IMG/VR virus record: IMGVR_UViG_3300034104_000211
Location: 1 to 20,043 of that record
Source of the DNA: a virus
DNA length: 20,043 nt
Strand: one strand, 5' to 3'
The notes under the pieces were generated by a model. It was not told where the DNA came from. It saw nothing but the letters and a program-made list of their open reading frames with translations, and ran no database searches. How positions within the stretch are numbered: the stretch's first letter is position 1; every line of letters starts with the position of its first letter. Shown piece by piece: positions 1 through 20,043 of the stretch. The position numbers and the translations under genes were made by a program.

Positions 1-2
1 AC

Positions 3-344
3 GAAGCCCAAAAGAAGCTGCTTGAAAAGACAGACAAGAAGTGGCGGTTCGGTGACCTGTTTACCAGCAGCATTTCAAACTACAACATCCCTGCACCATT
101 CCACCGTGATGCAGCCAACATCATCGGGGCGGTAAACGTCATTATCACCAAGCGTGAGAATAGCATCGGGGGCAACCTCAACATCCCCGACTACGGAGCA
201 ACAATTGACCAATGCGACAACTCAATACTGGTGTACCCAGCATGGCGCAATATGCACGGAGTAACGCCCATTGAACCAACGGCTGAAGGTGGCTACCGCA
301 ACTCGCTGGTATTCTATCCCTTAAAATCTTTTGAAAATGTCTAA
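3..344 (+). CDS. 2-oxoglutarate/Fe(II) dioxygenase-like jelly-roll protein, C-terminal part (5' truncated by window edge)
   Basis: An open frame enters from the left edge and stops at TAA 342-344, leaving 113 residues. The fragment reads as a double-stranded beta-helix core. It has an H-R-D triad (His34, Asp36) followed by A-A-N, a Gly-Gly turn at 56-57, a hydrophobic strand then N-M-H-G (His85), and a Y-R-N-S strand (Arg99). HxD...H...R is the iron and 2-oxoglutarate binding pattern of the Fe(II) dioxygenase superfamily. The spacing and the terminal H-G-V-T-P-I ... Y-R-N-S-L-V-F-Y pattern recall the TET/JBP branch that hydroxylates pyrimidine methyl groups in DNA, but that subfamily call is an inference. 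A protein or small-molecule hydroxylase is possible. The stop overlaps the start of the terminase small subunit by 8 bases. The N-terminal part is outside the window, so fused domains cannot be excluded. Confidence 0.6.
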   Translation, partial: EAQKKLLEKTDKKWRFGDLFTSSISNYNIPAPFHRDAANIIGAVNVIITKRENSIGGNLNIPDYGATIDQCDNSILVYPAWRNMHGVTPIEPTAEGGYRNSLVFYPLKSFENV

Positions 345-687
345 CAGAGTTGAACACACAAAAAGGGCATTGATTGAAGCAATGGAAGCCTCGCTTGGCG
401 TGGTGACAACCGCCTGCAAAAAGGTAGGCGTAAGCCGCACCACGTTCTACGAGTACTACAATACGGACGCAGCGTTCAAGAAAACGATTGATGAACTGGA
501 GGCCGTAGCCCTTGACTTTGCAGAAAGCCAGTTGCATGCCCAGATAATGAAGGGCAGCACGGCAGCCACCATCTTCTACCTCAAGACAAAGGGCAAGAAG
601 CGTGGGTACATTGAACGCCAAGAGATTGAAGCCGTAGGCGGTAAGATGTTCCAAATAGAGGTGCTTGGGGAAGATACAGACCAATAA
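337..687 (+). CDS. terS: Terminase small subunit-like DNA-binding protein
   Basis: This 116-residue protein starts at ATG 337. A TTG six bases upstream is in frame but less likely. Residues about 20-42 form a helix-turn-helix: V-T-T-A-C-K-K-V-G-V-S-R-T-T-F-Y-E-Y-Y, the A-x3-G-V-S-x-x-T-F-Y pattern of small terminase subunits and related homeodomain-like phage proteins. The rest is helical, including an I-M-K-G-S-x-A-A-x-I-F-Y-L-K-T stretch often seen in such proteins, and a short C-terminal tail. Small terminases recognise the packaging site and hand DNA to the large subunit. It sits directly before the large subunit, whose start lies inside this gene, which strongly supports the call. A non-terminase HTH regulator is the alternative. 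Confidence 0.75.
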   Translation: MSNRVEHTKRALIEAMEASLGVVTTACKKVGVSRTTFYEYYNTDAAFKKTIDELEAVALDFAESQLHAQIMKGSTAATIFYLKTKGKKRGYIERQEIEAVGGKMFQIEVLGEDTDQ

Positions 688-1822
688 GGTATTCAACCAC
701 CTCAAGCGCAGCGACAAGAAGATAGTTGTTGAGCAGGGCGGCACTCGGAGTGGGAAGACATACAACATCCTGCTCTGGGTGATTTTCTATTACACCGACC
801 AACACACGGACAAGACCATCACCATCTGCCGTAAGACGTTCCCATCGTTGCGTGCTTCGGTGATGAGGGACTTCTTTGAAATCCTGCGGCAGAACGACCT
901 GTATCGTGAGGACTATCACAACCGGTCAAACCACGAGTACTACCTCAATGGCAACTTGGTGGAGTTCATCAGCCTTGACCAACCGCAAAAGATACGAGGC
1001 CGTAAGCGTGACTTGTTGTACATCAACGAGGCCAACGAACTAACGTATGAGGATTGGCAGCAGCTCATCCTGCGTACCGAAGGCAGGGCAATCCTTGACT
1101 ACAACCCATCGGATGCGTTCCATTGGATATACGACAAAGTTGTCCCCCGTGATGACTGCGACTTCTTCCAGACCACCTACATTGACAACCCGTTCCTTGA
1201 TGCAAGCGTAAAGGCAGAGATTGAACGCCTCAAGGAAACCGATGAGGACTACTGGCGTATCTATGGCTTGGGCGAGCGTGGCATGAGCCGTGCCACCATC
1301 TTCCAGTTCGGAGCAACAGACGTACCCAGCAACGCAAGGCTCTTGTCAATGGGGCTTGACTTTGGTTTCACCAACGACCCCAGCGCACTTGTTGCCGTGT
1401 ATGAAGCAGACGGTTGCCTGTACCTTGATGAGTTGCTTTACCAAACCGGCATGACCAACAACGACATCGCCAACGTGCTGACCTCGCTGGGTGTTGACCG
1501 CAGGAGTGAGGTGTATGCCGATAGCGCAGAACCCAAGTCCATTGAGGAGCTATACCGCAGGGGCTACAACGTGAAGCCCACGGCAAAGGGTGCGGATAGC
1601 GTGAACGCTGGCATTGACATAATGAAACGCTACAAGCTATTCATCACACCACGCAGCAAGAACCTTGAAAAGGAGCTGCGCAACTACAAGTGGACAGAGG
1701 ACAAGAACGGCAACCTGCTGAACAAACCCATTGACGCATTCAACCACGCTATTGATGCCGCACGATACGCTATCTTTAGCAAGAAAAACAACCCCAACTT
1801 CGGGCGATATTCAGTACGATGA
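665..1822 (+). CDS. terL: Terminase large subunit (packaging ATPase and nuclease)
   Basis: This 385-residue protein is the DNA-packaging motor that pumps genome into the prohead and cuts it. The ATPase half shows Walker A G-G-T-R-S-G-K-T at residues 25-32 and a Walker B-like strand ending L-L-Y-I-N-E-A (Asn121, Glu122), the form typical of the PBSX/Terminase_3 group. The nuclease half has the RNase H-like acidic residues: Asp232 in G-L-D-F-G-F, Asp286 in V-Y-A-D-S-A-E-P, and Asp357/Asp364 in D-A-F-N-H-A-I-D-A. The frame has no ATG before Walker A. The first usable codon after the in-frame TAG at 656 is TTG at 665, giving a 23-base overlap with the small subunit gene. It is slightly shorter than many homologues but both domains look complete. 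The stop TGA overlaps the next ATG (ATGA). Confidence 0.95.
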   Translation: MGKIQTNKVFNHLKRSDKKIVVEQGGTRSGKTYNILLWVIFYYTDQHTDKTITICRKTFPSLRASVMRDFFEILRQNDLYREDYHNRSNHEYYLNGNLVEFISLDQPQKIRGRKRDLLYINEANELTYEDWQQLILRTEGRAILDYNPSDAFHWIYDKVVPRDDCDFFQTTYIDNPFLDASVKAEIERLKETDEDYWRIYGLGERGMSRATIFQFGATDVPSNARLLSMGLDFGFTNDPSALVAVYEADGCLYLDELLYQTGMTNNDIANVLTSLGVDRRSEVYADSAEPKSIEELYRRGYNVKPTAKGADSVNAGIDIMKRYKLFITPRSKNLEKELRNYKWTEDKNGNLLNKPIDAFNHAIDAARYAIFSKKNNPNFGRYSVR

Positions 1823-2739
1823 TTTTTGTAGCAGGCAAACTGGGTGGTGTATTCTACCACCGACTTCAAGTACCATACGAAGACCTGATGCTTCGGGGCT
1901 ATATGGTCAAGTTCGGGCAGCTTGATGAGCTGGACAAATACAAAGGAGCCATCACGCATCTGGTTATTAACAGGGGCGTAGCCACTAAGAACCACAGGGC
2001 ATTCAGAGGGATGCTCAACAAGCATGGCATAAAGCTGATTCTTGACCTTGATGACTGGTGGGTATTGCCACGCCACCACGCCAATAGGAACGCCCTTAAG
2101 ACAAGCGACATCCTGTGGAGCATCAAGATTGCTGATGAAATCCATACGACCAACCCATTCCTCGCAGAGCAGATTCAGAAGGAGAACCCATACGTTCCCA
2201 TCTGGGTGCTGCCTAACGCCATTGACACACGCAGGGAGCAATGGACAGACATTGAAAAGGTAGAGGGCTTCAACGTGGGTTATATGGGTGCATTGCACCA
2301 CGATGATGATTTGGCCTACAATCGCATCAATTTAGCTGGCCTTAACGCATACACCATTGAGTACTACAAAGAAGCTCTAAACGCCTCTAATGCGTTTGAA
2401 CGGGCTGACCACACCACCTACGGCAAGTTGTACAAACAGATTCACGTCAGTATCGCTCCGCTTGCACCCAGCACATTCAACCGATGCAAGTCAAACCTCA
2501 AGGCGATTGAAGCTGGTTTCACCAAGACGTGCATCATTGCGCAGGACATGCACCCGTACACGCCCTTCCTAAACGAGAACAACGCAATCCTGTGCAAAGG
2601 ACCAGCCCATTGGGAGGAGGAACTCAAGAACCTTGACCCAGCAAGATGCGCTGAATTAGCCGAGCAGTTGCACAAGGACGTGCAGTTCTACACCATCCAG
2701 AATATAAACGACACACGCCAGCAATGCTTCGCACAATAA
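1819..2739 (+). CDS. GT-B fold glycosyltransferase (GT4-like)
   Basis: This 306-residue protein starts with the ATGA overlap at 1819. Its architecture is that of a retaining GT-B glycosyltransferase. There is an N-terminal Rossmann half with G-G-V-F-Y-H near the start and D-L-D-D-W-W at 76-81. The linker is L-P-N-A-I-D at 131-136. A second Rossmann half begins at V-G-Y-M-G-A (154-158), with a donor-site region S-N-L-K-A-I-E-A-G at 225-233 followed by P-Y-T-P-F. No signal peptide or membrane segment is seen, so it acts in the cytoplasm. The substrate is not readable from sequence: virion proteins, modified DNA bases or host surface glycans are all possible. Its position between terminase and tail genes, co-transcribed and overlapping both neighbours, argues for a late role in virion or DNA modification. 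Confidence 0.8.
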   Translation: MIFVAGKLGGVFYHRLQVPYEDLMLRGYMVKFGQLDELDKYKGAITHLVINRGVATKNHRAFRGMLNKHGIKLILDLDDWWVLPRHHANRNALKTSDILWSIKIADEIHTTNPFLAEQIQKENPYVPIWVLPNAIDTRREQWTDIEKVEGFNVGYMGALHHDDDLAYNRINLAGLNAYTIEYYKEALNASNAFERADHTTYGKLYKQIHVSIAPLAPSTFNRCKSNLKAIEAGFTKTCIIAQDMHPYTPFLNENNAILCKGPAHWEEELKNLDPARCAELAEQLHKDVQFYTIQNINDTRQQCFAQ

Positions 2740-3371
2740 ACGTCCCCAGCGTATGGGCTGACATCAAGCTCAAGGACTTCCAACGCTTTATGGGGGCAAA
2801 CCCCACCGATGAAACGGCTGATGACCTTGCCCTGTCCATCTTCTGCGGCATTGACAAGGATGAGCAGAGCCTGTTCCCCGTGAACGAAATTGAGGACATC
2901 AAGACCATTATGGCAGGGGTGTTCATGCAGAACCCAGAGCTGCAACGCTTCGTGAAGATAGGAGGCGTGGACTACGGCTTCCATCCCAAGCTGGAGGACA
3001 TCAGCATCGGTGAGTTCGTGGACTTGGAGGAGTATATGAAAGACCCAATCAAGAACGCTACCAAATGGATGGGCATCTTGTACCGACCCGTTACGAAGAA
3101 GGTATTGAACCGCCACGAGATAGAACCATACCACCCCGATAAGCACGATGGTGCTGCGTTTGAGGACATCACGATGGATGTAGTGCAAGGTGCGCTGCTT
3201 TTTTTTTATCGTTTAGAGATAGGACTGCAGATATCTTCTCTGACCTATTTGAAGCAACAGGCGGAACAAGAGAAGTCCTTGACGCACGAAGTGCCTTCGG
3301 AAAACGATGGGGATGGTACGCAGTCCTCCATCAGCTTGCTGCAGGGGCTATACAAAATCTTGACAAAGTAA
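2724..3371 (+). CDS. Tail assembly chaperone, short (unshifted) form
   Basis: This is the 215-residue 0-frame product starting at ATG 2724 inside the glycosyltransferase gene (16-base overlap). The N-terminal roughly 160 residues are an acidic, helix-rich domain with W-A-D-I-K-L-K-D-F-Q near the start and I-S-I-G-E-F-V-D-L-E-E-Y in the middle. I infer a tail chaperone from position and from the frameshift architecture: a T9 run at 3199-3207 followed by a long open -1 frame. After the slip site the 0 frame continues to TAA 3369-3371, overlapping what looks like the genuine downstream coding frame. In lambda-type tails the short form (G-like) and long form (GT-like) coat the tape measure and recruit tube subunits in a set ratio. 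An uncharacterised structural protein is the alternative. Confidence 0.6.
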   Translation: MLRTINVPSVWADIKLKDFQRFMGANPTDETADDLALSIFCGIDKDEQSLFPVNEIEDIKTIMAGVFMQNPELQRFVKIGGVDYGFHPKLEDISIGEFVDLEEYMKDPIKNATKWMGILYRPVTKKVLNRHEIEPYHPDKHDGAAFEDITMDVVQGALLFFYRLEIGLQISSLTYLKQQAEQEKSLTHEVPSENDGDGTQSSISLLQGLYKILTK

Positions 3372-3466
3372 CCGAGCTGCCCTTGTACCAATGCCTAACG
3401 TGGATAACCTACGAGGCTGACAGGGCAAGACTTGAGCAGACCATATCACGACAACGTACCCGATAA
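2724..3466 (+). CDS. Tail assembly chaperone, long form by -1 frameshift (GT-like)
   Basis: Slipping back one base at 3200-3206 joins residues 1-161 of the short form to 86 codons of the -1 frame, ending at TAA 3464-3466 (247 residues in all). The -1 frame is open from just after TGA 3161-3163. It encodes a coherent helical domain with F-S-D-L-F-E-A-T-G-G, F-G-K-R-W-G-W-Y, L-H-Q-L-A-A-G-A and L-T-W-I-T-Y-E-A-D-R. The W-G-W-Y block followed by a small-residue helix and a final E-x-x-R helix resembles the C-terminal part of tail chaperones in other phages (recalled, not searched). It also fills 3372-3466, which otherwise holds no gene. The fusion has no start of its own that I can see, which favours frameshifting over a separate gene. 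A sequencing error in the homopolymer is the competing explanation. Confidence 0.65.
3199..3207 (+). promoter_or_regulatory. Probable programmed -1 ribosomal frameshift site (T9 slippery run)
   Basis: Nine consecutive T are followed by A. In the 0 frame the codons at 3201 and 3204 are TTT TTT, and base 3200 is also T, so 3200-3206 fits the X-XXY-YYZ slippery heptamer rule. The -1 frame is open from 3164 to 3466, so slipping here is productive. No downstream pseudoknot was worked out. Confidence 0.65.
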
Positions 3467-3480
3467 GTGGTTTTCTATTT

Positions 3481-3948
3481 ATGAAGTACGGCTACTATCA
3501 AGTGTGTGAGGCTCTGCAATCAGCAGCCGAATCCGCATCATACGTCAACTCGGTAACGTGGGGCAACATCTTTGACGTTGACATGCGCAAGATGACCCTG
3601 TTCCCTCTGTGCCATATCTTAACCGGCACGGCTGAAATCCAAGAGCGCACCGTCACCTACTCCATTGACGTGCTGGTCATGGACGTGATGGACTACTCCA
3701 AGCAAGACCCGAACGTAGAGCCGTACTCGTTTCAAGGCGTAGCCCAGAAGCAAGACATCTATCACCGCAGCCTGTTCACCCTGCAGGAAATGATTGCCTC
3801 AATGCGCAGGGGTGACCTGTACACCGATGGCTACCGCTTGGTCAACGACCCCGTGTGCGAGCCTTTTGATGAGGACTTTGAGAACACCCTGTGCGGATGG
3901 AAGTGTACGCTGCAGATTGAAACACCCAACCCGACCATCATCTGCTAA
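3481..3948 (+). CDS. Neck/tail-terminator-like conserved phage protein
   Basis: This 155-residue protein starts with ATG 3481 after a 14-base T-rich gap, one of the few non-overlapping junctions. It is a mixed alpha/beta protein. An N-terminal helix (Y-Y-Q-V-C-E-A-L-Q-S-A-A) is followed by strands around T-L-F-P-L-C-H-I and V-T-Y-S-I-D-V-L-V-M-D-V-M-D. A middle helix leads to a C-terminal strand G-W-K-C-T-L-Q-I-E ending in P-N-P-T. Length, fold pattern and position between the tail chaperone and an HK97 gp10-like protein suit a tail terminator or tail completion protein that caps the tube at the neck (inference). The stop TAA shares its last base with the next ATG (TAATG). No enzymatic motif is visible. 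Confidence 0.45.
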   Translation: MKYGYYQVCEALQSAAESASYVNSVTWGNIFDVDMRKMTLFPLCHILTGTAEIQERTVTYSIDVLVMDVMDYSKQDPNVEPYSFQGVAQKQDIYHRSLFTLQEMIASMRRGDLYTDGYRLVNDPVCEPFDEDFENTLCGWKCTLQIETPNPTIIC

Positions 3949-4463
3949 TGGCACGGCAGACAGGCAACCCCAACCTAAAGAGGGCAGAGAACACCCGACT
4001 TGCATTGGACAAGTTCGGCAAGTACTTGGTTGCTGAAAGCCGCAAGAACCTAACACGCAAAAAAAAGAACGTCACGGGCAACCTGTACAAGTCGCTGGAC
4101 TACGAAATAACAACTGGCCCAAATAGCCTTGATTTTGACTTCTTGATGGCAGAGTATGGCGAGTGGGTGGACAAGGGTAGAAAAGCAGGAAAGATGCCCC
4201 CGTTCGGGGCGATATACGCATGGACTGCTCGCAGACGTTTGCAGTTCAAGGACAACAAAGGCAAGTTCCTGTCGTATGCTGAAACCGCACGCAAGGTGAT
4301 GATTAAGATTAAGGCCAAAGGAATTGAGCCTTCCAACTTCTACTCACGCCCTTTTCAGCTTGGCTTTGACAAACTGCCCACCGAAATACAACAGGCCTAT
4401 GGCCTTGACGTGGAGGACTTCCTTGAGTTTACGATAAACGAATTGAACAAAAAATATAAGTAA
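3948..4463 (+). CDS. HK97 gp10-like head-tail joining/neck protein
   Basis: This 171-residue, strongly basic protein starts at 3948 by TAATG overlap. The N-terminal helix is rich in Arg/Lys (L-T-R-K-K-K-N-V-T-G-N-L-Y-K-S-L). A short beta section follows, then Y-G-E-W-V-D-K-G-R-K-A-G, and P-P-F-G-A-I-Y-A-W with helical and F-Y-S-R-P-F turns. The T-G-x-L-x-x-S followed by Y-x-x-x-V-D-x-G pattern is the hallmark of the HK97 gp10/tail-completion family, whose members sit at the head-tail interface of siphoviruses. It also joins the next gene by TAATG. A related minor tail protein is possible. Confidence 0.6.
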   Translation: MARQTGNPNLKRAENTRLALDKFGKYLVAESRKNLTRKKKNVTGNLYKSLDYEITTGPNSLDFDFLMAEYGEWVDKGRKAGKMPPFGAIYAWTARRRLQFKDNKGKFLSYAETARKVMIKIKAKGIEPSNFYSRPFQLGFDKLPTEIQQAYGLDVEDFLEFTINELNKKYK

Positions 4464-8441: not shown

Positions 8442-10156
8442 TCAAGCTAAAGGTTGAAAATGGCGAGGCCTTGCTCAACATTGAGAAGGTCAACAAAGCC
8501 CTTGCCGACACCAACAAGCAAACAGACAACCTAAACGAAACTATGTCCTCTGCTACGGAGGCCATTGATAAGTTTACGGGTGGTGCTGCATCTGGCTTCA
8601 AGGCCGTGGTTGGTGGCGTAAAAACATTTTTAGGTTCGCTCACCACGCTCAAGGGCGCACTCATTGCCACCGGCTTGGGTGCGTTGGTTGTTGCGCTTGG
8701 TTCATTGTTTACCTACTTCACGCAGACCTCACGGGGTGCTGACCAGTTCGCCAAGATTATGGGCGGAGTTAGCGCAGCCGTCAAGGTCGTTTTAGACCGT
8801 GTGATTGGACTTGGTGAATCGCTGGTCAAGTTGTTCAGCGGTGACTTCAAAGGTGCAGTAGAGGGCGTTAAAAACGCATTCAAGGGACTGGGTGATGAGA
8901 TAGCCCGTGAAACCAAAGAAGGCGCACGCCTTGCCGAGCAGCTTGACAACATTGAAGACAGGGAGCGTGACCTCATCAAGCTACGAGCAGAGGCCAACCG
9001 AGAAATCGCAAAGGCACGCCTGATTGCTGATGACCAAACCAAGTCAGTTCAAGAGCGTGAAAAGGCAGTACGCAGGGCATTCACCCTTGAGAATAACGTA
9101 GCAAAAGCCGAGCAAGCCAATGCTCAATCTTATGTCAAGTACCTAAAGGAGCGTATTGCTCTTGGCGAATCAACCGATGAGGACTTGCGCAGCCTTGCAG
9201 AAGCAGAAGCAAAGGTCAACGAACTGCGTACTGAAAACCTGCGCAGAAATAGAAGGCTTGAGATTGAACTCAAGGGCCTCCGTACCGAGGCCAAGACCGC
9301 AGCAGATGAAGAAGCAAAGGCTCTTGATGAACGTACCAAGAAGGAAATTGAAGCAGGTGAGGAGCGCAAAAAGGTAGAGCGTGAGGTTGCTGAAATCCAA
9401 AAGAAGGTGGCTGATGAAAAGAAGCTGCAGCAATCGCAAGCCACAAACGCCTACAACGATGCGTTAGCCTCATTCCGTGCTTCCAATATGACTGCCCAGC
9501 AGCAGGAGCTGGCAGCAGCCGAGCAGCAGTACCTTGCACTCACTACGCTCGCCATCAAAGCCGGCAAGGACACTACTGCCGTAACTGCCGAGTACGAAGA
9601 GAAGAAGAAACAAATTAAGAAGAAGTACGCTGATGAGGAGCGTGCCAGAGAAATCGCAGCAGCAGCGCAATCGGTGGAGCTGGTGTCGCAGTCGCTTGGT
9701 GCTATTGCTGGCCTTGTGGATGCACTTGGCAAGGGCAACGAACGCAACGCAGAGAAGAACTTTAAAATCACCAAAGCTCTGCGCATAGCAGAAGCCGTTG
9801 CAAGTACCGCAGCAGCCATCATGACGCAGCTTGCCGTACCGCAGGATGCCCTGACGGGAGCCAACTTCGTGAAGGCTGGTATCGTTGCCGTGACCGGTGC
9901 AGCACAGATTGCAACAATCGCCAACACCAGGTTCCAAAAAGGTGGTGCATCGGGTGGTCGTGTATCGCAGCCCAGCATTCCCACATCATCACCTACGGCA
10001 AACCCACTTACGCCAAACATCCAGTTCGGCAACACAGAAAACCAACTTGCAGGAATGCTTGGTCAGCCCATGCGTGCCTATGTGGTGAACCAAGATATAC
10101 AAAGTGCTAACCAGCTTGAGCGCAAGATTCGCTCCAGCGCAACAATCGGAGGATGA
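8423..10156 (+). CDS. Tail tape measure protein
   Basis: This 577-residue protein starts at ATG 8423 with a purine run A-A-A-A-A-G-G just upstream. The N-terminal 60 residues are helical. Residues about 74-99 form a hydrophobic, Gly-rich segment (L-I-A-T-G-L-G-A-L-V-V-A-L-G), as in tape measures that insert into the host membrane. Residues about 160-420 are a long, highly charged coiled coil (E-R-E-K-A-V-R-R and many K-K-x-E repeats). A second Ala/Ile-rich hydrophobic stretch lies near 455-510, followed by a Pro/Ser/Asn-rich tail. By the usual rule of about 0.15 nm per residue it would set a tail of roughly 85-90 nm (estimate). The stop overlaps the next ATG (ATGA). Oddly, five genes separate it from the tail chaperone. 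Confidence 0.85.
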   Translation: MAVEKVIKLKVENGEALLNIEKVNKALADTNKQTDNLNETMSSATEAIDKFTGGAASGFKAVVGGVKTFLGSLTTLKGALIATGLGALVVALGSLFTYFTQTSRGADQFAKIMGGVSAAVKVVLDRVIGLGESLVKLFSGDFKGAVEGVKNAFKGLGDEIARETKEGARLAEQLDNIEDRERDLIKLRAEANREIAKARLIADDQTKSVQEREKAVRRAFTLENNVAKAEQANAQSYVKYLKERIALGESTDEDLRSLAEAEAKVNELRTENLRRNRRLEIELKGLRTEAKTAADEEAKALDERTKKEIEAGEERKKVEREVAEIQKKVADEKKLQQSQATNAYNDALASFRASNMTAQQQELAAAEQQYLALTTLAIKAGKDTTAVTAEYEEKKKQIKKKYADEERAREIAAAAQSVELVSQSLGAIAGLVDALGKGNERNAEKNFKITKALRIAEAVASTAAAIMTQLAVPQDALTGANFVKAGIVAVTGAAQIATIANTRFQKGGASGGRVSQPSIPTSSPTANPLTPNIQFGNTENQLAGMLGQPMRAYVVNQDIQSANQLERKIRSSATIGG

Positions 10157-11893: not shown

Positions 11894-11930
11894 TAAAATC
11901 CCCAAATATCAATCTATTTATTTTTTAGTT

Positions 11931-12494: not shown

Positions 12495-12497
12495 AAA

Positions 12498-13430
12498 ATG
12501 GCAACGACCACTTCAATCACTACTACCTACGCAGGTGAGTTTGCAGGGAAATACATCTCTGCAGCCCTCTTGTCAGGTGACACCATCGCCAAAGGCGGCA
12601 TTGAGGTTGTACCTAACGTAAAGTACAAGCAAGTACTTAAGAAGGTAAACCTTAACGACATCGTTAAAGACCAAACTTGTGACTTTACCGACACGTCTAC
12701 CTTGACCATGACCGAGGCTATCCTTCAGCCAGAGTTCCTGCAGGTAAACCTTGAGCTTTGCAAAAGCGACTTCGAATCAGATTGGGAAGCCATCCAAATG
12801 GGCTACTCTGCATTCGACCAACTGCCTACTTCATTCGTTGACTACTTCATCGGCTACAACGCTGGTAAAGTTGCCGAGTGGGTTGAAAGCAAAATCTGGA
12901 CTGGTGCTACTGCCAACGCTGGTGAGTTCAACGGATTCCAAACCCTCCTCGCTGCTGACACGACTGTTATTGACGTGACTGCTGCTACTGGTGGCGTGAC
13001 GGCTTCTAACGTCATCACGGAAATGGGCAAAGTTCTTGATGCTGCTCCTAACGCAGTATACGGCAAGGATGACCTGTACCTGTACGTTCCTACCAATGTT
13101 TACAAGGCTTACGTTCGTGCGCTTGGTGGCTTTGCTGCTTCTGGCGTAGGTGCTAATGGTGTAGACAATCGTGGTACTTTGTGGTACGGTGGTCAAGACC
13201 TGTTCTTTGACGGAGTTCGTGTATTCCACGCTCCGGGCTTGGGTAGCAACAAAATGGTACTTGCCCAAAAGAGCAACCTGTACTTCGGAACTGGACTCCT
13301 TTCGGACCACAACGAGGTGAAGGTTCTTGACATGGCTGACCTTGACGGCTCAAAGAACGTGCGTTTCGTAATGCGCTTCACGGCTGGTGTACAGGTAGGC
13401 TTCGGTGCTGACGTAGTTTACTACGCTTAA
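12498..13430 (+). CDS. Major capsid protein (HK97-fold candidate)
   Basis: This 310-residue protein starts at ATG 12498, three bases after the scaffold stop in an A-rich context. It begins with a Thr/Ala tail (M-A-T-T-T-S-I-T-T-T-Y-A-G-E-F-A), then E-V-V-P-N-V-K-Y-K-Q-V. A central helical section (D-Q-L-P-T-S-F-V-D-Y-F-I) leads to Y-L-Y-V-P-T-N-V-Y-K-A-Y-V-R-A-L and a C-terminal F-V-M-R-F-T-A-G-V-Q-V-G-F. Length, neighbours and the C-terminal strand pattern fit the HK97-fold capsid protein, although the family was not searched. Codon use is noticeably narrower than in neighbours (many GCT, GGT, CGT, TTC and GAC), as expected for a very abundant product. Both TCGA tetramers in the window lie here. 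A strong terminator follows. Confidence 0.8.
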   Translation: MATTTSITTTYAGEFAGKYISAALLSGDTIAKGGIEVVPNVKYKQVLKKVNLNDIVKDQTCDFTDTSTLTMTEAILQPEFLQVNLELCKSDFESDWEAIQMGYSAFDQLPTSFVDYFIGYNAGKVAEWVESKIWTGATANAGEFNGFQTLLAADTTVIDVTAATGGVTASNVITEMGKVLDAAPNAVYGKDDLYLYVPTNVYKAYVRALGGFAASGVGANGVDNRGTLWYGGQDLFFDGVRVFHAPGLGSNKMVLAQKSNLYFGTGLLSDHNEVKVLDMADLDGSKNVRFVMRFTAGVQVGFGADVVYYA

Positions 13431-13452
13431 TTAGCTGACTGATTAACCATAG

Positions 13453-13487
13453 GGGGGTGGTGGTTTCAAAGCCCCATCCCCTTTTTT
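13453..13487 (+). terminator. Rho-independent terminator after the capsid gene
   Basis: The stem GGGGGTGG (13453-13460) pairs with CCATCCCC (13474-13481) with one G-T wobble and a 13-base loop, followed by six T (13482-13487). It lies 22 bases after the capsid stop codon. Confidence 0.85.
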
Positions 13488-13503
13488 AATTCTAAAACAC
13501 AAA

Positions 13504-14058: not shown

Positions 14059-14060
14059 CC

Positions 14061-14070
14061 TATATTTGTA
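14061..14070 (+). promoter_or_regulatory. Possible Bacteroidota-type promoter -7 element
   Basis: The string TATATTTGTA fits the Bacteroidota -7 consensus TAnnTTTG. It starts two bases after the tail-tube stop codon (TAA 14056-14058). A TTG at 14042-14044 is a poor, too-close match for the -33 box. Such 6-position matches also occur by chance, so only the intergenic place gives it weight. Confidence 0.35.
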
Positions 14071-14107
14071 GCGTACTGCTGAACGGAGTAGGACAAATGG
14101 ATGGGAC

Positions 14108-14136
14108 AAGGGGGGCTTCGGCCTCCCTTTTCTTTT
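14108..14136 (+). terminator. Rho-independent terminator with TTCG tetraloop
   Basis: The stem AAGGGGGGC (14108-14116) pairs with GCCTCCCTT (14121-14129) around a stable TTCG loop (14117-14120), with one G-T wobble. It is followed by T4-C-T4 to 14136. It ends the tail-tube transcript or the short transcript that could start near 14075. Confidence 0.9.
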
Positions 14137-14143
14137 GAAACTT

Positions 14144-14168
14144 ACCCCACTTTGTAGTCACTTGGGGT
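14144..14168 (+). other. Short inverted repeat in the leader of the 165-residue gene
   Basis: ACCCCA (14144-14149) pairs exactly with TGGGGT (14163-14168) across a 13-base loop. No T run follows, so it is not a clear terminator. It lies ten bases before the next start and may shape the leader RNA. The rest of 14059-14177 holds no gene. Confidence 0.4.
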
Positions 14169-14177
14169 TATTTAGAT

Positions 14178-14675
14178 ATGATATTCCTGTCATACAACGC
14201 CCAACAGAGCATCACTTTGCCCATCCGCAACTGGAAGTACGGCAATGATGACCTAACAAACTACGGTGACTACTGGCGAATCCAAGCCAAGTTCATCAAC
14301 AAAGACACCCGTGAGGTCATCACATACACGCTTGTTGCGCCTACGTTTGATGAGGACACCCGTGAGCTTACGTTTACCTACAACTCCGCAAACCTTGATG
14401 CGGAAGTGCCATACGTTATGCGCCTTGAAGACCAACGCTACGCAGCAGGAGTCGCAAACGAATACGAAGACCGAGTTATTGCAGATGCAGGAACGATAGA
14501 ATCACTATCTTGCGTAACAACTGCGCTCACCGAATTGGGTGCAGATGATGCAAAGGTGCTGGCGATTGACAAGATTTATATGCTGCCGAGTGGTGATACC
14601 ATCAGCACATACCAGCCCGTTCTTGACACCACCGAAAAAACAATGAATAACGATTTTGTTATATATGGCGAGTAA
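14178..14675 (+). CDS. Small virion-associated protein with DGG-E-C module
   Basis: This 165-residue protein starts at ATG 14178 in a T/A-rich leader. Residues 1-90 form a beta domain (I-F-L-S-Y-N-A-Q-Q-S-I-T-L-P-I-R, Y-W-R-I-Q-A-K-F-I-N-K-D, L-T-F-T-Y-N-S-A-N-L), with a Y-V-M-R-L-E-D-Q strand. Residues 96-121 carry the helical module shared with two other virion proteins here. The last about 40 residues are extended. No enzymatic motif, signal peptide or membrane span is seen. Position just before the portal gene, whose start it overlaps by 11 bases, suggests a head or neck component (inference). The family is not recognised. Confidence 0.6.
   Translation: MIFLSYNAQQSITLPIRNWKYGNDDLTNYGDYWRIQAKFINKDTREVITYTLVAPTFDEDTRELTFTYNSANLDAEVPYVMRLEDQRYAAGVANEYEDRVIADAGTIESLSCVTTALTELGADDAKVLAIDKIYMLPSGDTISTYQPVLDTTEKTMNNDFVIYGE
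14463..14540 (+). repeat. DGG-E-C module, copy 2
   Basis: This copy covers residues 96-121 of the 165-residue protein. It starts Y-E-D-R-V-I-A-D-A-G-T-I-E and continues with a Cys-Val helix ending E-L-G. The first Gly of the pair is replaced by Ala. Confidence 0.75.
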
Positions 14676-16701
14676 CATCAAACTCATCAATCTGGCTTCG
14701 TACACAAGCCCGAAAATCAGCGAAAGCCCACGCTTAAGCTGGGTGGAGTATGGCGATGACAACAACTACTTTGAGTATTTGATTGACCGCTTCAACGGCA
14801 GCCCCACAAACAACGCAGTAATCGCTGGCGTGGTGGATATGATTTACGGCAAGGGCGTAACTGCAAGCAATGCGGCAGAAAACCCAGCCGGCTTTATGGA
14901 GCTGCGCAGGCTCATCACTCCAGAGCAGCTGAAGCGTGTGGTCAATGACTTCTACATGCTTGGCAATGCTGCCTTTCAGGTGGTGTACACGGCTGACAAG
15001 AGCAAGATTGCAGAGGTATACCACATGCCCGTTGAAACCCTGCGTGCGGAGAAGTGCAACGATGAAGGCGAAATTGAAGCCTACTACTACGCCTACGACT
15101 GGAGCAAGGTGCGCAACAAGAGCCAAGCAGAGCGAATCCCTGCCTTCGGATACGGAGCAGCAGGCGAGAAGATTGAAATCCTTTACATCCGCCCATATCG
15201 TAGTGGCTCGTACTACTACTCACCAGTTGACTATCAAGGCGGTTTGCCTTATGCGGAGATGGAGGAGGAGATTGCCAACTACCATATCAACAACATCAAG
15301 AACGGGCTTGCTCCGTCAATGATTATTAACTTCAACAACGGCATTCCGCCACAGGAGGAGCAGGATAACATTGACTTTGCCATCAAGCAGAAGTGGAGTG
15401 GCAGTAACAACGCAGGCAAGTACATCCTTGCGTTCAACGATGATTCGCAGAAGGCAGCCACGATTGAGCCAGTAACGCTATCGGAAGCCCACCTGCAGTA
15501 TGAGTTCTTGAGCCGTGAGTCTTCGCAGAAGATTATGGTTGCGCATCGTGTTACCTCGCCCATGCTTTTCGGCATCAAGGATAACACCGGTTTGGGCAAC
15601 AATGCCGAAGAAATCAAGAATGCGTTTCAGTTGATGGACAACGTAGTGGTGCGCCCCAAGCAGGAGGAAATCCTCAAGGGCGTTGACAAGATGCTTGCCT
15701 ACAACAAGGTGAACCTTGACCTGTACTTTGAAACGCTTACGCCAATTGAGTTCACGGATATTGATGTGGTTGACGCAGCAACAGTCCAAGAGGAAACGGG
15801 AGTTGACGTAGCCGAGGCGGTAACGCCACAGGCACAAGAGGAACTCATCCAGAAGGAGGCATCGTACAATGGTGCGCAGATTGCCAGCTCGCTGGACATT
15901 ATGCGTGCCGTACAGGAAGGGGTGCTATCGCAAGACCAAGCCATCACATTCCTTGTGCAGATGCTGCAGTTTGACCCACAGGTTGCCCGAGCATTGTTTG
16001 CTGGTAACTCATCATCTGTAATTACGCAGATGAAGTCTCAGAAAGGAGGAGGGGATAGCCGCCCTTTTCTCAAGGAGGAGCTTGCTGCTGAAATCGTAGC
16101 CAAGCTCCAAGAGATTGGAGAATCGGAGGAGGACTTGCTCAAGGACTTTGAGCTTGTTGATGCGGAGCTGGTTGATGATGAGGAGGCGGAGTACGATATT
16201 GAAGCGTACCTGAACTCACGTATTGAGCTTGCTGCACAGGACAAGAGCGAGCAAGATACGGAGCGTTACAAGGTGCGTTACTTCTACACAAAGGGAGTTA
16301 AGGCCAGCCCCAAAGGCACAAGCCGTGTTCTTTGCTCTACGCTGATGAACGCAGCCCGTGTGTACCGCAAGGAGGACATTGAGGCGTTAAGCTCTAACGG
16401 AGGCGCAGAAGCGCAAGGCAAGTCATACAGCGTATGGTTGTACAAAGGCGGAGCCAACTGCTACCATCGTTGGGAGCGCAGGGTCTACCGCAAGAAGCTA
16501 ACGAAGGATGGCAAGATTTGGGGAGGCGGAACGCTGAACGGAACCGACATCATCAACGTAAACGAGGCCGTGCGGCAGGGATTCAAGCTGCCCAAGAACG
16601 CCAAAGAGGTAGCCATTGCACCCATTGCTTCGGACTACGGAGGCTATACTGCCGAATACGCTCAAGAGCATGGCATTCCAAAATCTCGCAACATCCGGTA
16701 G
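14665..16701 (+). CDS. Portal protein with C-terminal Cys/His domain
   Basis: This 678-residue protein starts at ATG 14665. An in-frame TTG nine bases upstream is less likely. Portal features in the first about 390 residues include I-D-R-F-N-G-S-P-T-N-N-A-V-I near the start, then Y-G-K-G-V and N-D-F-Y-M-L-G-N-A-A-F. Around 280-315 is E-F-L-S-R-E-S-S-Q-K-I-M-V-A-H-R-V-T followed by S-P-M-L-F-G-I. The portal forms the ring through which DNA enters and leaves the head and to which the adaptor binds. After an acidic linker (about 455-530), a separate domain runs from Arg534 to the end. It has S-R-V-L-C (Cys557), Y-R-K-E-D-I, and Y-K-G-G-A-N-C-Y-H-R-W (Cys599, His601). That domain recalls minor-head or gp7-type tails that are fused here (inference). 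The gene follows the capsid gene instead of preceding it. Confidence 0.85.
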   Translation: MASNIKLINLASYTSPKISESPRLSWVEYGDDNNYFEYLIDRFNGSPTNNAVIAGVVDMIYGKGVTASNAAENPAGFMELRRLITPEQLKRVVNDFYMLGNAAFQVVYTADKSKIAEVYHMPVETLRAEKCNDEGEIEAYYYAYDWSKVRNKSQAERIPAFGYGAAGEKIEILYIRPYRSGSYYYSPVDYQGGLPYAEMEEEIANYHINNIKNGLAPSMIINFNNGIPPQEEQDNIDFAIKQKWSGSNNAGKYILAFNDDSQKAATIEPVTLSEAHLQYEFLSRESSQKIMVAHRVTSPMLFGIKDNTGLGNNAEEIKNAFQLMDNVVVRPKQEEILKGVDKMLAYNKVNLDLYFETLTPIEFTDIDVVDAATVQEETGVDVAEAVTPQAQEELIQKEASYNGAQIASSLDIMRAVQEGVLSQDQAITFLVQMLQFDPQVARALFAGNSSSVITQMKSQKGGGDSRPFLKEELAAEIVAKLQEIGESEEDLLKDFELVDAELVDDEEAEYDIEAYLNSRIELAAQDKSEQDTERYKVRYFYTKGVKASPKGTSRVLCSTLMNAARVYRKEDIEALSSNGGAEAQGKSYSVWLYKGGANCYHRWERRVYRKKLTKDGKIWGGGTLNGTDIINVNEAVRQGFKLPKNAKEVAIAPIASDYGGYTAEYAQEHGIPKSRNIR

Positions 16702-16717
16702 TTAAGGTTTATTAGTT

Positions 16718-17218
16718 ATGGCATACGCCCTTTTTGTATCACCAGACGACATCGTAAAGCGCACGGGTATTTCGGGCAACGTAGACCGTGACCAGATGGT
16801 GCAGTTTATTAAGACCGCACAGGACATCCATATCCAAGCGTTGCTGGGTACTGCCCTGTACGACAAGCTGAAGAACGATGTGCTGGCAAACACCCTCACG
16901 GGCAACTACCTCACCTTGATGACCGAGTACGTTCAAGACGTGCTGGTTCACTACACTATGGTAGAGCTGATGCCTTTCTTGGCATATAAGCTGAGTAATG
17001 GGGGCGTATTTAAAAAGCAGAGCGAGAACTCGGAAGGCATTGACAAGAGTGAGCTGGAGTACCTCATCCAAAAGGAGCGAGATACGGCAGAACACTACGG
17101 AAGACGTTTGGTCAGCTACCTGACCTTCTACGGAAGTTTAACTCCAGAGTACTACGCCAACCAGAATGGCGAGATGTACCCAACAGACGGACAATCATTT
17201 CACGGATGGTACCTATGA
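16718..17218 (+). CDS. Head-tail adaptor-like protein (DUF6712/gp6-like)
   Basis: This 166-residue, mainly helical protein starts at ATG 16718 after a 16-base gap. The early segment F-V-S-P-D-D-I-V-K-R-T is followed by V-D-R-D-Q-M-V-Q-F-I-K-T-A-Q-D-I-H-I-Q-A-L-L-G. Then come L-Y-D-K-L-K-N-D and, further on, V-Q-D-V-L-V-H-Y-T-M-V-E-L-M-P-F-L. Helix-rich adaptors of this size that begin with a residue-by-residue I-x-A-L-L-G-x-x-L helix connect the portal ring to the neck. A Y-Y-A-N-Q tail ends the protein. The position directly behind the portal is as expected. It joins the next ORF by ATGA. The family assignment is from memory. Confidence 0.7.
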   Translation: MAYALFVSPDDIVKRTGISGNVDRDQMVQFIKTAQDIHIQALLGTALYDKLKNDVLANTLTGNYLTLMTEYVQDVLVHYTMVELMPFLAYKLSNGGVFKKQSENSEGIDKSELEYLIQKERDTAEHYGRRLVSYLTFYGSLTPEYYANQNGEMYPTDGQSFHGWYL

Positions 17219-17286
17219 AGTACGGAGTAAAGCGGGAGAATATCCAGAAGCTGAAGTTGTTTTTAAGTAAAGCGAAAAAGAAGTGA
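17215..17286 (+). CDS. Tiny basic ORF (23 residues)
   Basis: ATG 17215 overlaps the adaptor stop (ATGA), and its own stop TGA (17284-17286) overlaps the GTG start of the next gene (GTGA). The product starts M-K-Y-G-V-K-R-E-N-I-Q-K-L-K and ends K-A-K-K-K, with nine Lys in 23 residues and one likely amphipathic helix. Exact coupling on both sides without loss of frame suggests it is translated. It could simply be a re-initiation relay between its neighbours. No function is assigned. Confidence 0.55.
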   Translation: MKYGVKRENIQKLKLFLSKAKKK

Positions 17287-17603
17287 GTAATCTGATTGGG
17301 TGGGGTATTGTCTATTGTTCCTCTTGGTTCGGCCAAGTGGATGAAACCACTTTGTCCATCCAGAACGAATCAGCACCCCCATGCTTTGCCCCTGTTAACG
17401 AAATCGCTGATGAGTTCGTTGACCGGGTTACTGCCGATGGTGGTGTTGTAGAAGGCTACGATTGCTTGGTAGGGGCATTGCAGGATTTAGGAGAAGACAC
17501 CTACTACGATATTTTTGATACTTACATCCAGCGTATGACCGATGACGGAGCAACATTGGAGGGAGAAGAATGCTTGATTGACCAACTATTTATTTTGAAC
17601 TGA
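17283..17603 (+). CDS. Small virion-type protein with two tandem DGG-E-C modules
   Basis: This 106-residue protein starts at GTG 17283, overlapping the stop of the tiny ORF. The N-terminal 40 residues read I-G-W-G-I-V-Y-C-S-S-W-F-G, then T-T-L-S-I-Q-N-E-S-A-P-P-C-F, which looks like a small beta, Cys-containing head. Two 26-residue modules follow at 45-70 and 81-106, so the protein ends exactly with the second module. It is strongly acidic. Its place before the receptor-binding fibre, coupled by TGATG, suggests a tail-tip or fibre-attachment part (inference). No known family was recognised beyond the repeated module. Confidence 0.6.
   Translation: MSNLIGWGIVYCSSWFGQVDETTLSIQNESAPPCFAPVNEIADEFVDRVTADGGVVEGYDCLVGALQDLGEDTYYDIFDTYIQRMTDDGATLEGEECLIDQLFILN
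17415..17492 (+). repeat. DGG-E-C module, copy 3
   Basis: This copy covers residues 45-70 of the 106-residue protein. It starts F-V-D-R-V-T-A-D-G-G-V-V-E and continues with a Cys-Leu helix ending D-L-G. It is the best match to the shared pattern. Confidence 0.8.
17523..17600 (+). repeat. DGG-E-C module, copy 4 (diverged, C-terminal)
   Basis: This copy covers residues 81-106 of the same protein, 36 residues after copy 3 start to start. It starts Y-I-Q-R-M-T-D-D-G-A-T-L-E and the Cys is followed by Leu. R, D, E and C are kept. The final E-L-G is replaced by I-L-N just before the stop. Confidence 0.7.
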
Positions 17604-19264
17604 TGAGCTATTTTGACGATGCCAGCTTGGTGATGATTCCAAGCGGATACAAAGACCAGAAGGTCTACTCGGTGAAGCCTTTGGATGGGTCGGGAGACCT
17701 TACGTTCAGCCGTGCCTCAAGTGCAACCCGTGTTGCAAGCAATGGCCTTATTGAGAAGGTGCGTACGAATCTTGCTTTGCAGAGCAATACGTTTAGCAAC
17801 GCCTCTTGGATTAAAACCGATGTAAGTGTAACAAGCGGTCAAGCAGGATACGATGGCACTACCAATGCTTGGCTTGTTGCTAATACTGCTGCATCTGGTA
17901 ACCTAACGCAAACCATTTCTTTTAGCGGCTTTAATACGCTTTCGTTCTACGCAAAGGCTGGTACTCACAACTACATCTTTTTATTGCTCAATGGTGGCGG
18001 ATTTAACGCTACTGCGGTATACAATCTGTCTACTGGAGCTATAACGGATGCAAGTGGTGATGCTTTAATTACTACTGCTACAAGTGTTGGTAATGGATGG
18101 TGGAGAATCACTATTACTGGTTCACGTTCAAATTCAGACTTCCGTATTTACCCAACCAATACTAACGGAGCTGCAACTACAAACGGGAATATACTCGTTC
18201 AGAATGTTCAGCTTGAGGCAGGCGATATCGCAACAGACTACATCGCCACCACCAGCGCAGCAGTAAGCGTTGGACCTGTTAGTGGGGTACCCCGTTTGGA
18301 CTACTTGAATAGTACTTGTCCTCGCCTGTTGCTTGAGCCGCAGCGTACAAACGTAGCTACTTATTCAGAGCAGTTTGATAACGCAGCTTGGAGTAAAACA
18401 AAAGCAACGGTCACGGCAAATGATACCATTAGCCCAGATGGATATACAAATGCTGACAAGATTGTTTTTGCCGATGGAACAAGTACCATCTATCAAACTT
18501 ACAATCTTGCTGGGGCTACCGCTACTCGTTCAGTTTACATCAAGGGTACGGCTGGTCAAACAATCTCGTTAGATGATGTTTTCGCATCACAACCGCTTAT
18601 CACTCTTACGGGTCAATGGCAGCGCATAACCTTTACGGCTGCTGCTCCTAATGGATACGGATTTGGCATTAGTACTTTTGGTGGTGCTACTGCTCGCACC
18701 ATTTGGCTTTGGGGAGCGCAAGCAGAGGTCGGAGCCTACGCCACCTCGTACATCCCCACATTGGGAACGAGCGTTACAAGGGTTGCGGATGCTGCTTCTA
18801 AAACGGGCATTAGCTCGCTTATTGGGCAGACCGAAGGGACTATTTTTGCGGAAATCAATTTTGATTTGGGCGTAACTGCATTTGGTGATTCTCGCATACA
18901 GTTAAGCGATGGAACTACGTCAAATTGGATTTTTATAGGGATTCCCGATGGCCAATCTTCAAATCTTGTTCGTATCTATGTTAATGCGCCAAGTGGCGCA
19001 ATGTCAGCATATAGCACCAATCCATTGGTAAACGGAGTTAATAAAATTGCATACGGCTACAAAAGCGGTTCGTTTGTTCTTTACATCAACGGAGTACAAG
19101 CGGCAACAAGTTCAACAACTTTAACAATGGCAGCTTGTAGCCGCATTGACTTACAGGGTGCTGTGCCTTCAGCAGCTACGGCCGAACGCACTAACTACAA
19201 ACAAGTGCTACTTTTCAAGACCCGTTTAACTAACGCCCAACTGGCAGAATTGACCACGCTATGA
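17603..19264 (+). CDS. Receptor-binding tail fibre with duplicated carbohydrate-binding-like domain
   Basis: This 553-residue protein starts at ATG 17603 by TGATG overlap. The first about 50 residues, ending S-R-A-S-S-A-T-R-V-A-S-N-G-L-I-E, form the common fibre base. Residues about 54-216 and 248-400 are two copies of a beta-sandwich domain, each beginning R-T-N and continuing through F-x-N-A-x-W. Each ends in an I-L-V-Q-N-V-Q-L-E-A-G or I-W-L-W-G-A-Q-A-E-V-G strand followed by D-Y-I or S-Y-I-P. Between them lies G-V-P-R-L-D-Y ... C-P-R-L-L-L-E-P-Q, usually found directly after G-L-I-E in similar fibres. The C-terminal about 150 residues look like a concanavalin/LamG-type sandwich (G-T-I-F-A-E-I-N-F, F-V-L-Y-I-N-G-V-Q-A). 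It probably binds host surface glycans at the tail tip. Codons are more A/T-rich than in the capsid gene. Confidence 0.75.
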   Translation: MSYFDDASLVMIPSGYKDQKVYSVKPLDGSGDLTFSRASSATRVASNGLIEKVRTNLALQSNTFSNASWIKTDVSVTSGQAGYDGTTNAWLVANTAASGNLTQTISFSGFNTLSFYAKAGTHNYIFLLLNGGGFNATAVYNLSTGAITDASGDALITTATSVGNGWWRITITGSRSNSDFRIYPTNTNGAATTNGNILVQNVQLEAGDIATDYIATTSAAVSVGPVSGVPRLDYLNSTCPRLLLEPQRTNVATYSEQFDNAAWSKTKATVTANDTISPDGYTNADKIVFADGTSTIYQTYNLAGATATRSVYIKGTAGQTISLDDVFASQPLITLTGQWQRITFTAAAPNGYGFGISTFGGATARTIWLWGAQAEVGAYATSYIPTLGTSVTRVADAASKTGISSLIGQTEGTIFAEINFDLGVTAFGDSRIQLSDGTTSNWIFIGIPDGQSSNLVRIYVNAPSGAMSAYSTNPLVNGVNKIAYGYKSGSFVLYINGVQAATSSTTLTMAACSRIDLQGAVPSAATAERTNYKQVLLFKTRLTNAQLAELTTL

Positions 19265-19653
19265 AATTCCTAAAATACGAGTTCACGCCCACGCAATGGG
19301 CTACGGCTAAAGCCAAGATTGAAACAACGGGTACTGACCCAGAAGGTGAAACCTACACCTCTTGGAACTCCGAGCTGGTTACGGCAGTAGTTGAGTTGGG
19401 CTACCTATGCACCGAATGGGGTACGGATGCCGAAGGCAACCAAGTTTGCTTGAAGACCTCACCGAAGTACGCAGTAGATATCCTGTGGACAGGTGAGCCT
19501 CTTGCTACCTCATTTGCCTCTTACGTGGTATGGCCTGCTCCTTGTGGTGTGCATATCATCGCTGGATGGGAGCAAGCATACGCAGAAGAATACTGCAAGG
19601 CCAACCCCGAAGCTGCTTACTGCCAACCTCCTGTACCGCCTGTTGAGCAATGA
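19261..19653 (+). CDS. Fibre-associated hypothetical protein (130 residues)
   Basis: ATG 19261 overlaps the fibre stop (ATGA). The product is mixed, with Y-E-F-T-P-T-Q-W near the start. A central Cys-bearing Y-L-C-T-E-W-G-T-D is followed by V-D-I-L-W-T-G-E-P, V-V-W-P-A-P-C-G-V-H and a Cys-rich tail (Y-C-K-A-N-P-E-A-A-Y-C-Q-P-P). It lies directly behind the fibre, the usual place for fibre chaperones or fibre partners. I recall similar proteins behind Bacteroidota phage fibres but no function. It has no signal peptide. It ends with ATGA into the first membrane protein gene. Confidence 0.55.
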   Translation: MKFLKYEFTPTQWATAKAKIETTGTDPEGETYTSWNSELVTAVVELGYLCTEWGTDAEGNQVCLKTSPKYAVDILWTGEPLATSFASYVVWPAPCGVHIIAGWEQAYAEEYCKANPEAAYCQPPVPPVEQ

Positions 19654-19826
19654 CAAAGGAATCTGCTGATTCAGTTATCACGTCTTGGTCTTTAACGGGC
19701 GCAGGACTGCTCGTAGGCTATGTGCATCAAGCACTTGGTCTTTTGGTTCTGGTTGCCTCTCTTGCCTACACCTTATGGAAGTGGCGCAGAGATTGGCTTA
19801 AAGATAAAAACGAGCGCAAGTCGTGA
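19650..19826 (+). CDS. Small membrane protein, holin candidate 1 (58 residues)
   Basis: ATG 19650 overlaps the previous stop, and TGA 19824-19826 overlaps the GTG start of the next gene. A polar front (M-T-K-E-S-A-D-S) leads into a hydrophobic stretch from about 14 to 42 (L-T-G-A-G-L-L-V-G-Y and L-G-L-L-V-L-V-A-S-L-A-Y). This is long enough for one long or two short membrane helices, with a strongly basic tail (W-K-W-R-R-D-W-L-K-D-K). Size, topology and position near the end of the late genes suit a holin or antiholin. No lysin follows inside the window, so the role is inferred. Confidence 0.55.
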   Translation: MTKESADSVITSWSLTGAGLLVGYVHQALGLLVLVASLAYTLWKWRRDWLKDKNERKS

Positions 19827-20011
19827 TTATTGAGCGCATTTGGAAAGACCCAAAGACAACAGTATTAGGCCTGCTTATCGTAGGCCTTTGCTTTGTTCTG
19901 GTATTCTACGAGAAGGCTACCCTTACGGAGGTATCTGCGTTCCTGATGGGAGCGTTTGCACTTATGTTTTTAAAAGACCCTAACGATGGCAAAGCAACAG
20001 GCGGTAAGTAA
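19823..20011 (+). CDS. Small membrane protein, holin candidate 2 (62 residues)
   Basis: GTG 19823 overlaps the previous stop (GTGA). Two hydrophobic helices are visible: T-V-L-G-L-L-I-V-G-L-C-F-V-L-V-F at about 13-28, then K-A-T-L-T-E-V and A-F-L-M-G-A-F-A-L-M-F at about 39-50. A K-D-P-N-D tail follows. Similar two-helix proteins with K-A-T-L-T-E-V are recalled from Bacteroidota phages. It may act with the upstream membrane protein as a holin pair or as holin and regulator. The start of the next gene lies inside its last 26 bases. Confidence 0.6.
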   Translation: MIIERIWKDPKTTVLGLLIVGLCFVLVFYEKATLTEVSAFLMGAFALMFLKDPNDGKATGGK

Positions 20012-20043
20012 GTTCATCAGCAAGAGCAAGAAGCGAGGCAAGC
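19986..20043 (+). CDS. Basic small phage protein, 5' part only (runs off the window)
   Basis: ATG 19986 begins inside the preceding gene and stays open to the edge. The visible 19 residues start M-A-K-Q-Q-A-V-S-K-F and are very basic. I recall short, Lys-rich Bacteroidota phage proteins with such a start behind membrane protein genes, but the fragment is too short to assign a function. The call rests on the overlap style and on the same strand. Confidence 0.45.
   Translation, partial: MAKQQAVSKFISKSKKRGK

Follow-up and report, generated by a model that had tools for sequence, protein, structure and literature searches.

The window, as the stretch of DNA analyzed here is called throughout, is the 20,043-nucleotide (nt) IMG/VR record IMGVR_UViG_3300034104_000211, from an uncultivated freshwater phage; the analysis of this phage covers this 20-kb record, and its subject is the near-complete loss of GATC, TCGA, and other short motifs. 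The source is a tailed phage, probably of Bacteroidota. Among the 21 genes called (19.4 kb of coding sequence), the following lie on the forward strand. Positions 3..341 hold the 3' part of a Tet/JBP-type 2-oxoglutarate/Fe(II) dioxygenase gene (the C-terminal ~112 residues, the gene start lying upstream of the window). In its translation, FHRDAAN, MHGV, and YRNS correspond to the HxD...H metal-binding residues and distal arginine, as read from the sequence rather than from structure comparison, and the full-length homologue at L002:2390-3172 matches Pfam PF12851 Tet_JBP (E 2e-10; 40.6 bits, above the cut-off of 34.9). By these similarities, the segment is assigned to a TET-like dioxygenase gene, whose product would be predicted to oxidize 5-methylcytosine in DNA. 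A probable terminase small subunit (331..687; weak helix-turn-helix family matches in the homologue at L164:2237-2569) adjoins the terminase large subunit (665..1822; 37-40% identity to annotated phage terminases by tblastn). Farther along are the putative major capsid protein gene (12498..13430, an assignment of the preliminary description), which holds both TCGA sites, and the portal protein (14656..16701; PF04860 Phage_portal, E 2e-8, slightly under the Pfam cut-off). The nearest named phages by capsid are the Nonlabens phages P12024S/L (Inhavirus): the capsid product, for which 21 sequences were aligned, is 35% identical to a P12024 protein annotated as hypothetical, and in P12024S the homologous gene is likewise followed by the portal.

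Depletion of short motifs in the window

Counted exactly over the whole window, GATC, CTAG, and CGCG are absent and TCGA occurs twice (12772..12775 and 12814..12817), which confirms what the preliminary description reported for GATC and TCGA and had remarked, with less care, for the other two. Its figure of about 78 expected copies of each also holds: under a zero-order model each of the four would occur 77-78 times, and more demanding nulls likewise lie far above the observed counts. Maximum-order Markov models predict 81 GATC, 42 TCGA, 34 CTAG, and 46 CGCG (81, 43, 42, and 46 when made strand-symmetric); permuting synonymous codons inside the 21 genes in 200 shuffles gives 77.2±6.5 GATC, 90.2±6.4 TCGA, 57.6±5.8 CGCG, and 25.5±4.4 CTAG, and 0 of the 200 shuffles approached the observed counts. 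CGNCG (0 observed vs 103 expected from the shuffles), CTNAG (3 vs 52), and CCWGG (2 vs 35) are depleted as well. A general loss of palindromes is ruled out because GTAC (118 vs 107), TGCA (95 vs 80), AGCT (85 vs 97), ACGT (80 vs 91), and GANTC (42 vs 41) are near expectation, so that the depletion is both near-absolute and selective. Rusinov et al. (PMC6286503) call a site eliminated when its bias is below 0.1 with more than 15 sites expected; with Markov and shuffle expectations in place of the Burge measure, GATC (0/81), CGCG (0/46), CTAG (0/42), and TCGA (2/43 by Markov) fall within that definition and the codon shuffle agrees, the zero counts doing so under any measure since zero is 0 by all of them.

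A greedy finder of 4- to 6-base motifs, gapped and ungapped, was run against codon-shuffled versions of the same genes and returned 18 purged motifs, so that the four tetramers first noticed stand while the original scope of two to four motifs proves too narrow. Eight are palindromic (observed/expected: CGNCG 0/109, TCGA 2/93, GATC 0/79, CGCG 0/61, CTNAG 3/55, CCNGG 4/44, CTAG 0/25, and GGNCC 7/39); the ten asymmetric ones, 5-6-mers such as GACGA, ACAGC, CACTG, and CCCGC, are less secure. Together the 18 motifs would be expected at ~798 sites in the 19.4 kb of coding sequence, where 40 are observed, and the purging is seen in coding and noncoding DNA alike. The finder returned 0 motifs from three synonymously shuffled windows and, as positive controls, picked up the known avoidance of GATC (T7, Staphylococcus phage K) and of GGCC (phi29). 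Of ten named phages, nine gave 0-7 motifs and one, Flavobacterium phage FPSV-S2, gave 14. When stretches were limited to 10 kb, the median number of purged motifs was 7 in the 77 relatives tested (maximum 13), 2 in T7-like and FPSV-like phages, and 1 in 31 random IMG/VR contigs of usable length that were picked via an arbitrary 14-mer (maximum 5).

The two surviving TCGA sites had been attributed to codon constraint in the capsid gene, an explanation that fails. They read TTC GAA (Phe-Glu, 12772..12775) and TTC GAC (Phe-Asp, 12814..12817), and in the close relatives G020, G001, and L083 both positions read TTTGA, while G019, G021, L086, and L090 carry both sites as the window does; the comparison of sequences indicates that the two copies are retained or imported, perhaps through recombination with a TCGA-tolerant relative, rather than forced by the protein.

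Purge lists and modification modules among relatives

Searches with the terminase and capsid yielded 160 related loci, chosen by similarity and including a few duplicates; 35 records were analyzed over all or nearly all of their length. In these, the number of purged motifs per relative ranges from 4 to 25 (median 15), and the lists differ between lineages yet stay stable along each. Relative G021 tolerates TCGA and CTNAG and has almost lost CATG, CCGG, and CCNNGG; the G002/G004 clade tolerates GATC, TCGA, and CCGG; the asymmetric tetramer CCAG is purged in several relatives (0 of 162 expected in G007); and the CGNCG count is zero in most. Close relatives with similar G+C hold TCGA, GATC, or CCGG at a normal level, and avoidance state flips between relatives with nearly identical proteins. 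Avoidance is not tied to the structural genes, because the distant relative L223, in a Bacteroidia metagenome-assembled genome (MAG), has those genes (61% capsid identity) without such avoidance (41 GATC in 9.7 kb). On a tree of the terminase alone (79 sequences), where recombination could skew the counts of state changes, each motif changes state 0-5 times (GATC 1, CCAG 1, TCGA 3, CCGG 3, CTNAG 5). Phages more than ~90% identical have common lists with rare exceptions, and single motifs flip at ~82-90% identity. Fast turnover of the lists, hinted at by a first table, is refuted by these 0-5 changes per motif and by the sharing of lists between nearest pairs.

Site-by-site comparison of the window with G021, at 22% divergence, reveals changes in one direction for the motifs that only one of the two avoids. 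TCGA is G021-only at 83 positions and window-only at 0, and 71 of these 83 window losses are single-base changes, mostly at third codon positions; in reverse, CATG (26) and CCGG (16) are found in the window only, with 0 copies of either confined to G021. The control GTAC is unshared at 71 and 44 positions in the two directions and common to both at 39, and TGCA and AGCT likewise change both ways. Although 55 of the 71 single-base TCGA losses are C-to-T, deamination is disfavored because the losses of GATC, CATG, and CCGG include transversions and A/T changes alongside transitions. Selection is also apparent over a much shorter distance. The window and G019 are 96% identical; when the synonymous changes that separate them were placed at random positions, ~79 copies of eight purged motifs were expected to arise and 8 were counted, of which some had been disrupted by further changes (the GATC count of G019 is 0); seven unpurged control motifs gave 39 against 40 expected. 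As purged motifs almost never arise between these two phages, the depletion is maintained by continuing, present-day selection and not by composition.

A second layer of potential protection lies upstream of the terminase, where the locus was surveyed in L002-L080 up to ~3.5 kb from that gene. A ParB-type gene or domain was found there in 66 of 66 relatives checked, usually with a modification module adjoining or fused to it: a ParB-methyltransferase fusion in 26, ParB with Mom (PF25680) in 14, ParB with a TET/JBP dioxygenase (PF12851), often including a glycosyltransferase, in 14, ParB with a TET-associated glycosyltransferase (PF20691) and UDP-galactopyranose mutase in 4, and a type not assigned in 8. 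On the terminase tree, 24 switches of module type compare with 0-5 state changes for any purged motif, and the same lists recur whether the module is of the methyltransferase, Mom, TET, or UDP-galactopyranose mutase type; because of this disparity, the module neither sets nor relieves avoidance. Three particular links between modification and motif tolerance were also rejected. Mom might have accounted for the GATC- and TCGA-tolerant clade, G002 having Mom, but GATC avoiders have it too and tolerant kin lack it; no Dam (PF05869) or MethyltransfD12 (PF02086) genes were found that could lie behind GATC tolerance; and modification protecting GpC-containing palindromes gives no consistent rule for what stays, as CGCG is purged and GTAC and ACGT are kept.

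The locus has further features of its own. L002 and G019, of the same population as the window, have the complete TET-like gene; a ParB-type gene and a glycosyltransferase-like gene lie upstream of it (L002:1117-3172 and L190:1443-3525), and L002 and G019, though close, differ in the latter. At L022:739-1263, with homologues in L039, L043, and L064, a methyltransferase-like protein is encoded two genes upstream of ParB (PHROG 2675 'DNA methyltransferase', E 6e-26). In G020, a phosphoadenosine-phosphosulfate-reductase-like protein (L192:5363-6238; PHROG 424, E 8e-23) is encoded between a glycosyltransferase-like gene and an HNH gene, upstream of the terminase.

Host restriction as the probable cause, and its alternatives

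Host restriction-modification (R-M), mainly by orthodox Type II systems with short palindromic sites, is likely to have selected for the loss of sites, with a probability of about 0.8. A phage entering a cell whose enzyme recognizes a site it carries would have its DNA cut; sites would disappear by mostly synonymous substitution, and those reappearing would be removed again. The list of GATC, TCGA, CTAG, CGCG, CGNCG, CTNAG, CCNGG/CCWGG, and GGNCC, with the asymmetric 5-6-mers as less certain members, would in that case document which enzymes the host pool contains. GATC, TCGA, CTAG, CGCG, CATG, CCGG, CTNAG, and CCNGG are known Type II specificities, as are GGNCC, CCNNGG, GGNNCC, GCNNGC, GGCC, and ACGT. 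Host restriction is favored because it explains together the motif specificity, the near-absolute loss, its upkeep by selection, and lists that are specific to lineages and independent of phage modules, all of which are established by the comparisons above. Rusinov et al. 2018 (PMC6286503) likewise link phage site elimination to orthodox Type II systems and find it absent in RNA phages.

We infer both the selecting agent, for which host restriction enzymes are the best explanation, and the identity of the hosts, and several points weigh against this explanation. The preliminary description had already proposed selection by host restriction; that proposal stands as the best explanation, but no host, restriction gene, or methylase gene was matched to the purge list. 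A terminase search of GTDB genomes found no genome relative and hence no host, and a capsid profile search found only three MAG contigs, at 58-60% identity. A Bacteroidota host is plausible, given weak sequence similarity to phages of Flavobacterium, Bacteroides, and Nonlabens and to phage contigs from MAGs of Bacteroidia and Polaribacter. We know of no restriction enzyme for CGNCG, CCAG, ACAGC, or GACGA, and the CGNCG hits of a full-text literature search were mostly the lower strand of GCNGC. The common Type II sites GANTC, GCNGC, and GTAC are not avoided, and the phages' own modification modules should render avoidance unnecessary. Several purged motifs, moreover, are asymmetric, unlike the pattern described by Rusinov et al. 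(PMC6286503), who report little avoidance of asymmetric, Type I, IIG, and III sites.

Among alternatives, it is very improbable that modification-dependent (Type IV/IIM) host enzymes, cutting at motifs methylated by the host or phage, drove the purging of methylated motifs. Many relatives do have methyltransferase or TET/glycosyltransferase modules, and CCAG, purged in some, is part of the LpnPI site CCDG (PMC6329791), but the lists are independent of module type; GCNGC, the target of the BisI family in modified DNA (PMC2257971, PMC4926085), is at its expected level everywhere; and no strong under-representation of Type IV sites was reported by Rusinov et al. (PMC6286503).

Also very improbable, and already largely refuted, is an agent made by the phages themselves, whether endonucleases that degrade host DNA or their own modification module, forcing the genome to be motif-free. 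Purge lists do track phage phylogeny, and HNH and PDDEXK-type proteins and the ParB-plus-modification locus occur in relatives; against this, modules changed 24 times and each motif 0-5 times, different modules accompany the same lists, and the scanned proteins of G020, G021, and G002 include no restriction endonuclease, only a small HNH protein (G020) and a DUF3799 PDDEXK protein (G002). One or two nucleases would in any case be insufficient for 10-20 motifs.

Avoidance for reasons unrelated to cleavage, such as binding by a host regulator, orphan methylases, or a constraint on packaging or replication, is more doubtful still: CGNCG, ACAGC, and GACGA are not known to fit any restriction specificity, but many motifs are avoided at once, by lineage, and in coding and noncoding DNA, for which no single regulator or packaging signal suffices, and L223 has the same structural genes, at a distance, and no avoidance. 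Least credible of all is mutational or compositional bias (5-methylcytosine deamination, mismatch repair, or codon-pair bias) removing tetramers without restriction, which, despite the C-to-T majority among TCGA losses and the scarcity of CTAG in many bacteria, is refuted for the absolute depletion by zero counts that hold against synonymous shuffling, by loss of GATC, CATG, and CCGG through transversions and A/T changes, by relatives of similar G+C that keep the motifs, and by selection seen between 96%-identical phages, where random synonymous change would quickly restore sites, though it may play a part in mild deficits like those of AATT and TTAA.

On the host restriction explanation, the window is an extreme, multi-motif form of the restriction-site avoidance known in double-stranded DNA phages (PMC6286503; GATC in T7 and Staphylococcus phage K, GGCC in phi29). 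It resembles these in near-complete palindrome loss, in motif selectivity, and in mostly synonymous removal, and differs in that ~18 motifs (8 palindromic) are affected at once, with 4-25 in relatives, asymmetric ones included. The distant lineage of P12024S/L has only 4 purged motifs. Pelagiphages, also an environmental group in which motif depletion clusters by phage phylogeny, have lost one motif, GANTC, in about half of their members (PMC9516812), whereas the present group leaves GANTC unavoided and purges many others. Coliphages with hydroxymethylase avoid only 2.4% of host sites (PMC6286503), opposite to the coexistence of avoidance and modification genes here. Members of each of the known phage modification modules (Mom, TET/JBP with glycosyltransferase, ParB-methyltransferase fusions) occur at this group's locus; there they take one another's place next to ParB, frequently between close relatives, and they supplement site avoidance instead of substituting for it.

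Most accounts of site avoidance concern one or a few motifs and treat it as an alternative to modification. In this phage group the two occur together throughout, and lists that differ between lineages stay stable while modification genes turn over. Tentatively, at somewhat less than an even chance, this may amount to a two-layer form of antirestriction, in which near-complete, lineage-stable purging of ~10-20 motifs is combined with a fast-swapping modification module and the lists record the R-M repertoire of uncultivated hosts, including undescribed specificities (CGNCG, CCAG/CTGG, ACAGC/GCTGT, GACGA/TCGTC). If restriction is the cause, the lists would be a fingerprint of restriction enzymes in hosts that have not been grown, would predict new specificities and aid host assignment, and would make it directly testable whether modification eases the need for site avoidance.

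Other features of the window and its relatives

The most divergent shared gene of the window lies at 17603-19264 and encodes a 553-residue protein with no Pfam match, 44% identical to its counterpart in G020 against ~88-100% elsewhere; its homologue is tandemly duplicated in G025, and the product is probably a receptor-binding or tail-fiber protein. In G020 (L192:6521-7949), moreover, the terminase small subunit is a different one and the terminase departs from the window's in its N-terminal part (77% identity), although other structural genes are mostly 88-100% identical to those of the window; this is read as recombination at the packaging genes. A 59% capsid relative is found at L224:3133-11260, on a contig labeled as an archaeal chromosome (CP070803.1, a Woesearchaeota MAG with a 919-kb chromosome); its neighbors resemble the window genes at 10153 (64%) and 11865 (54%), the first of these neighbors lying in a 2001-residue open reading frame, and the locus may represent a provirus, a domesticated element, or a chimeric assembly.

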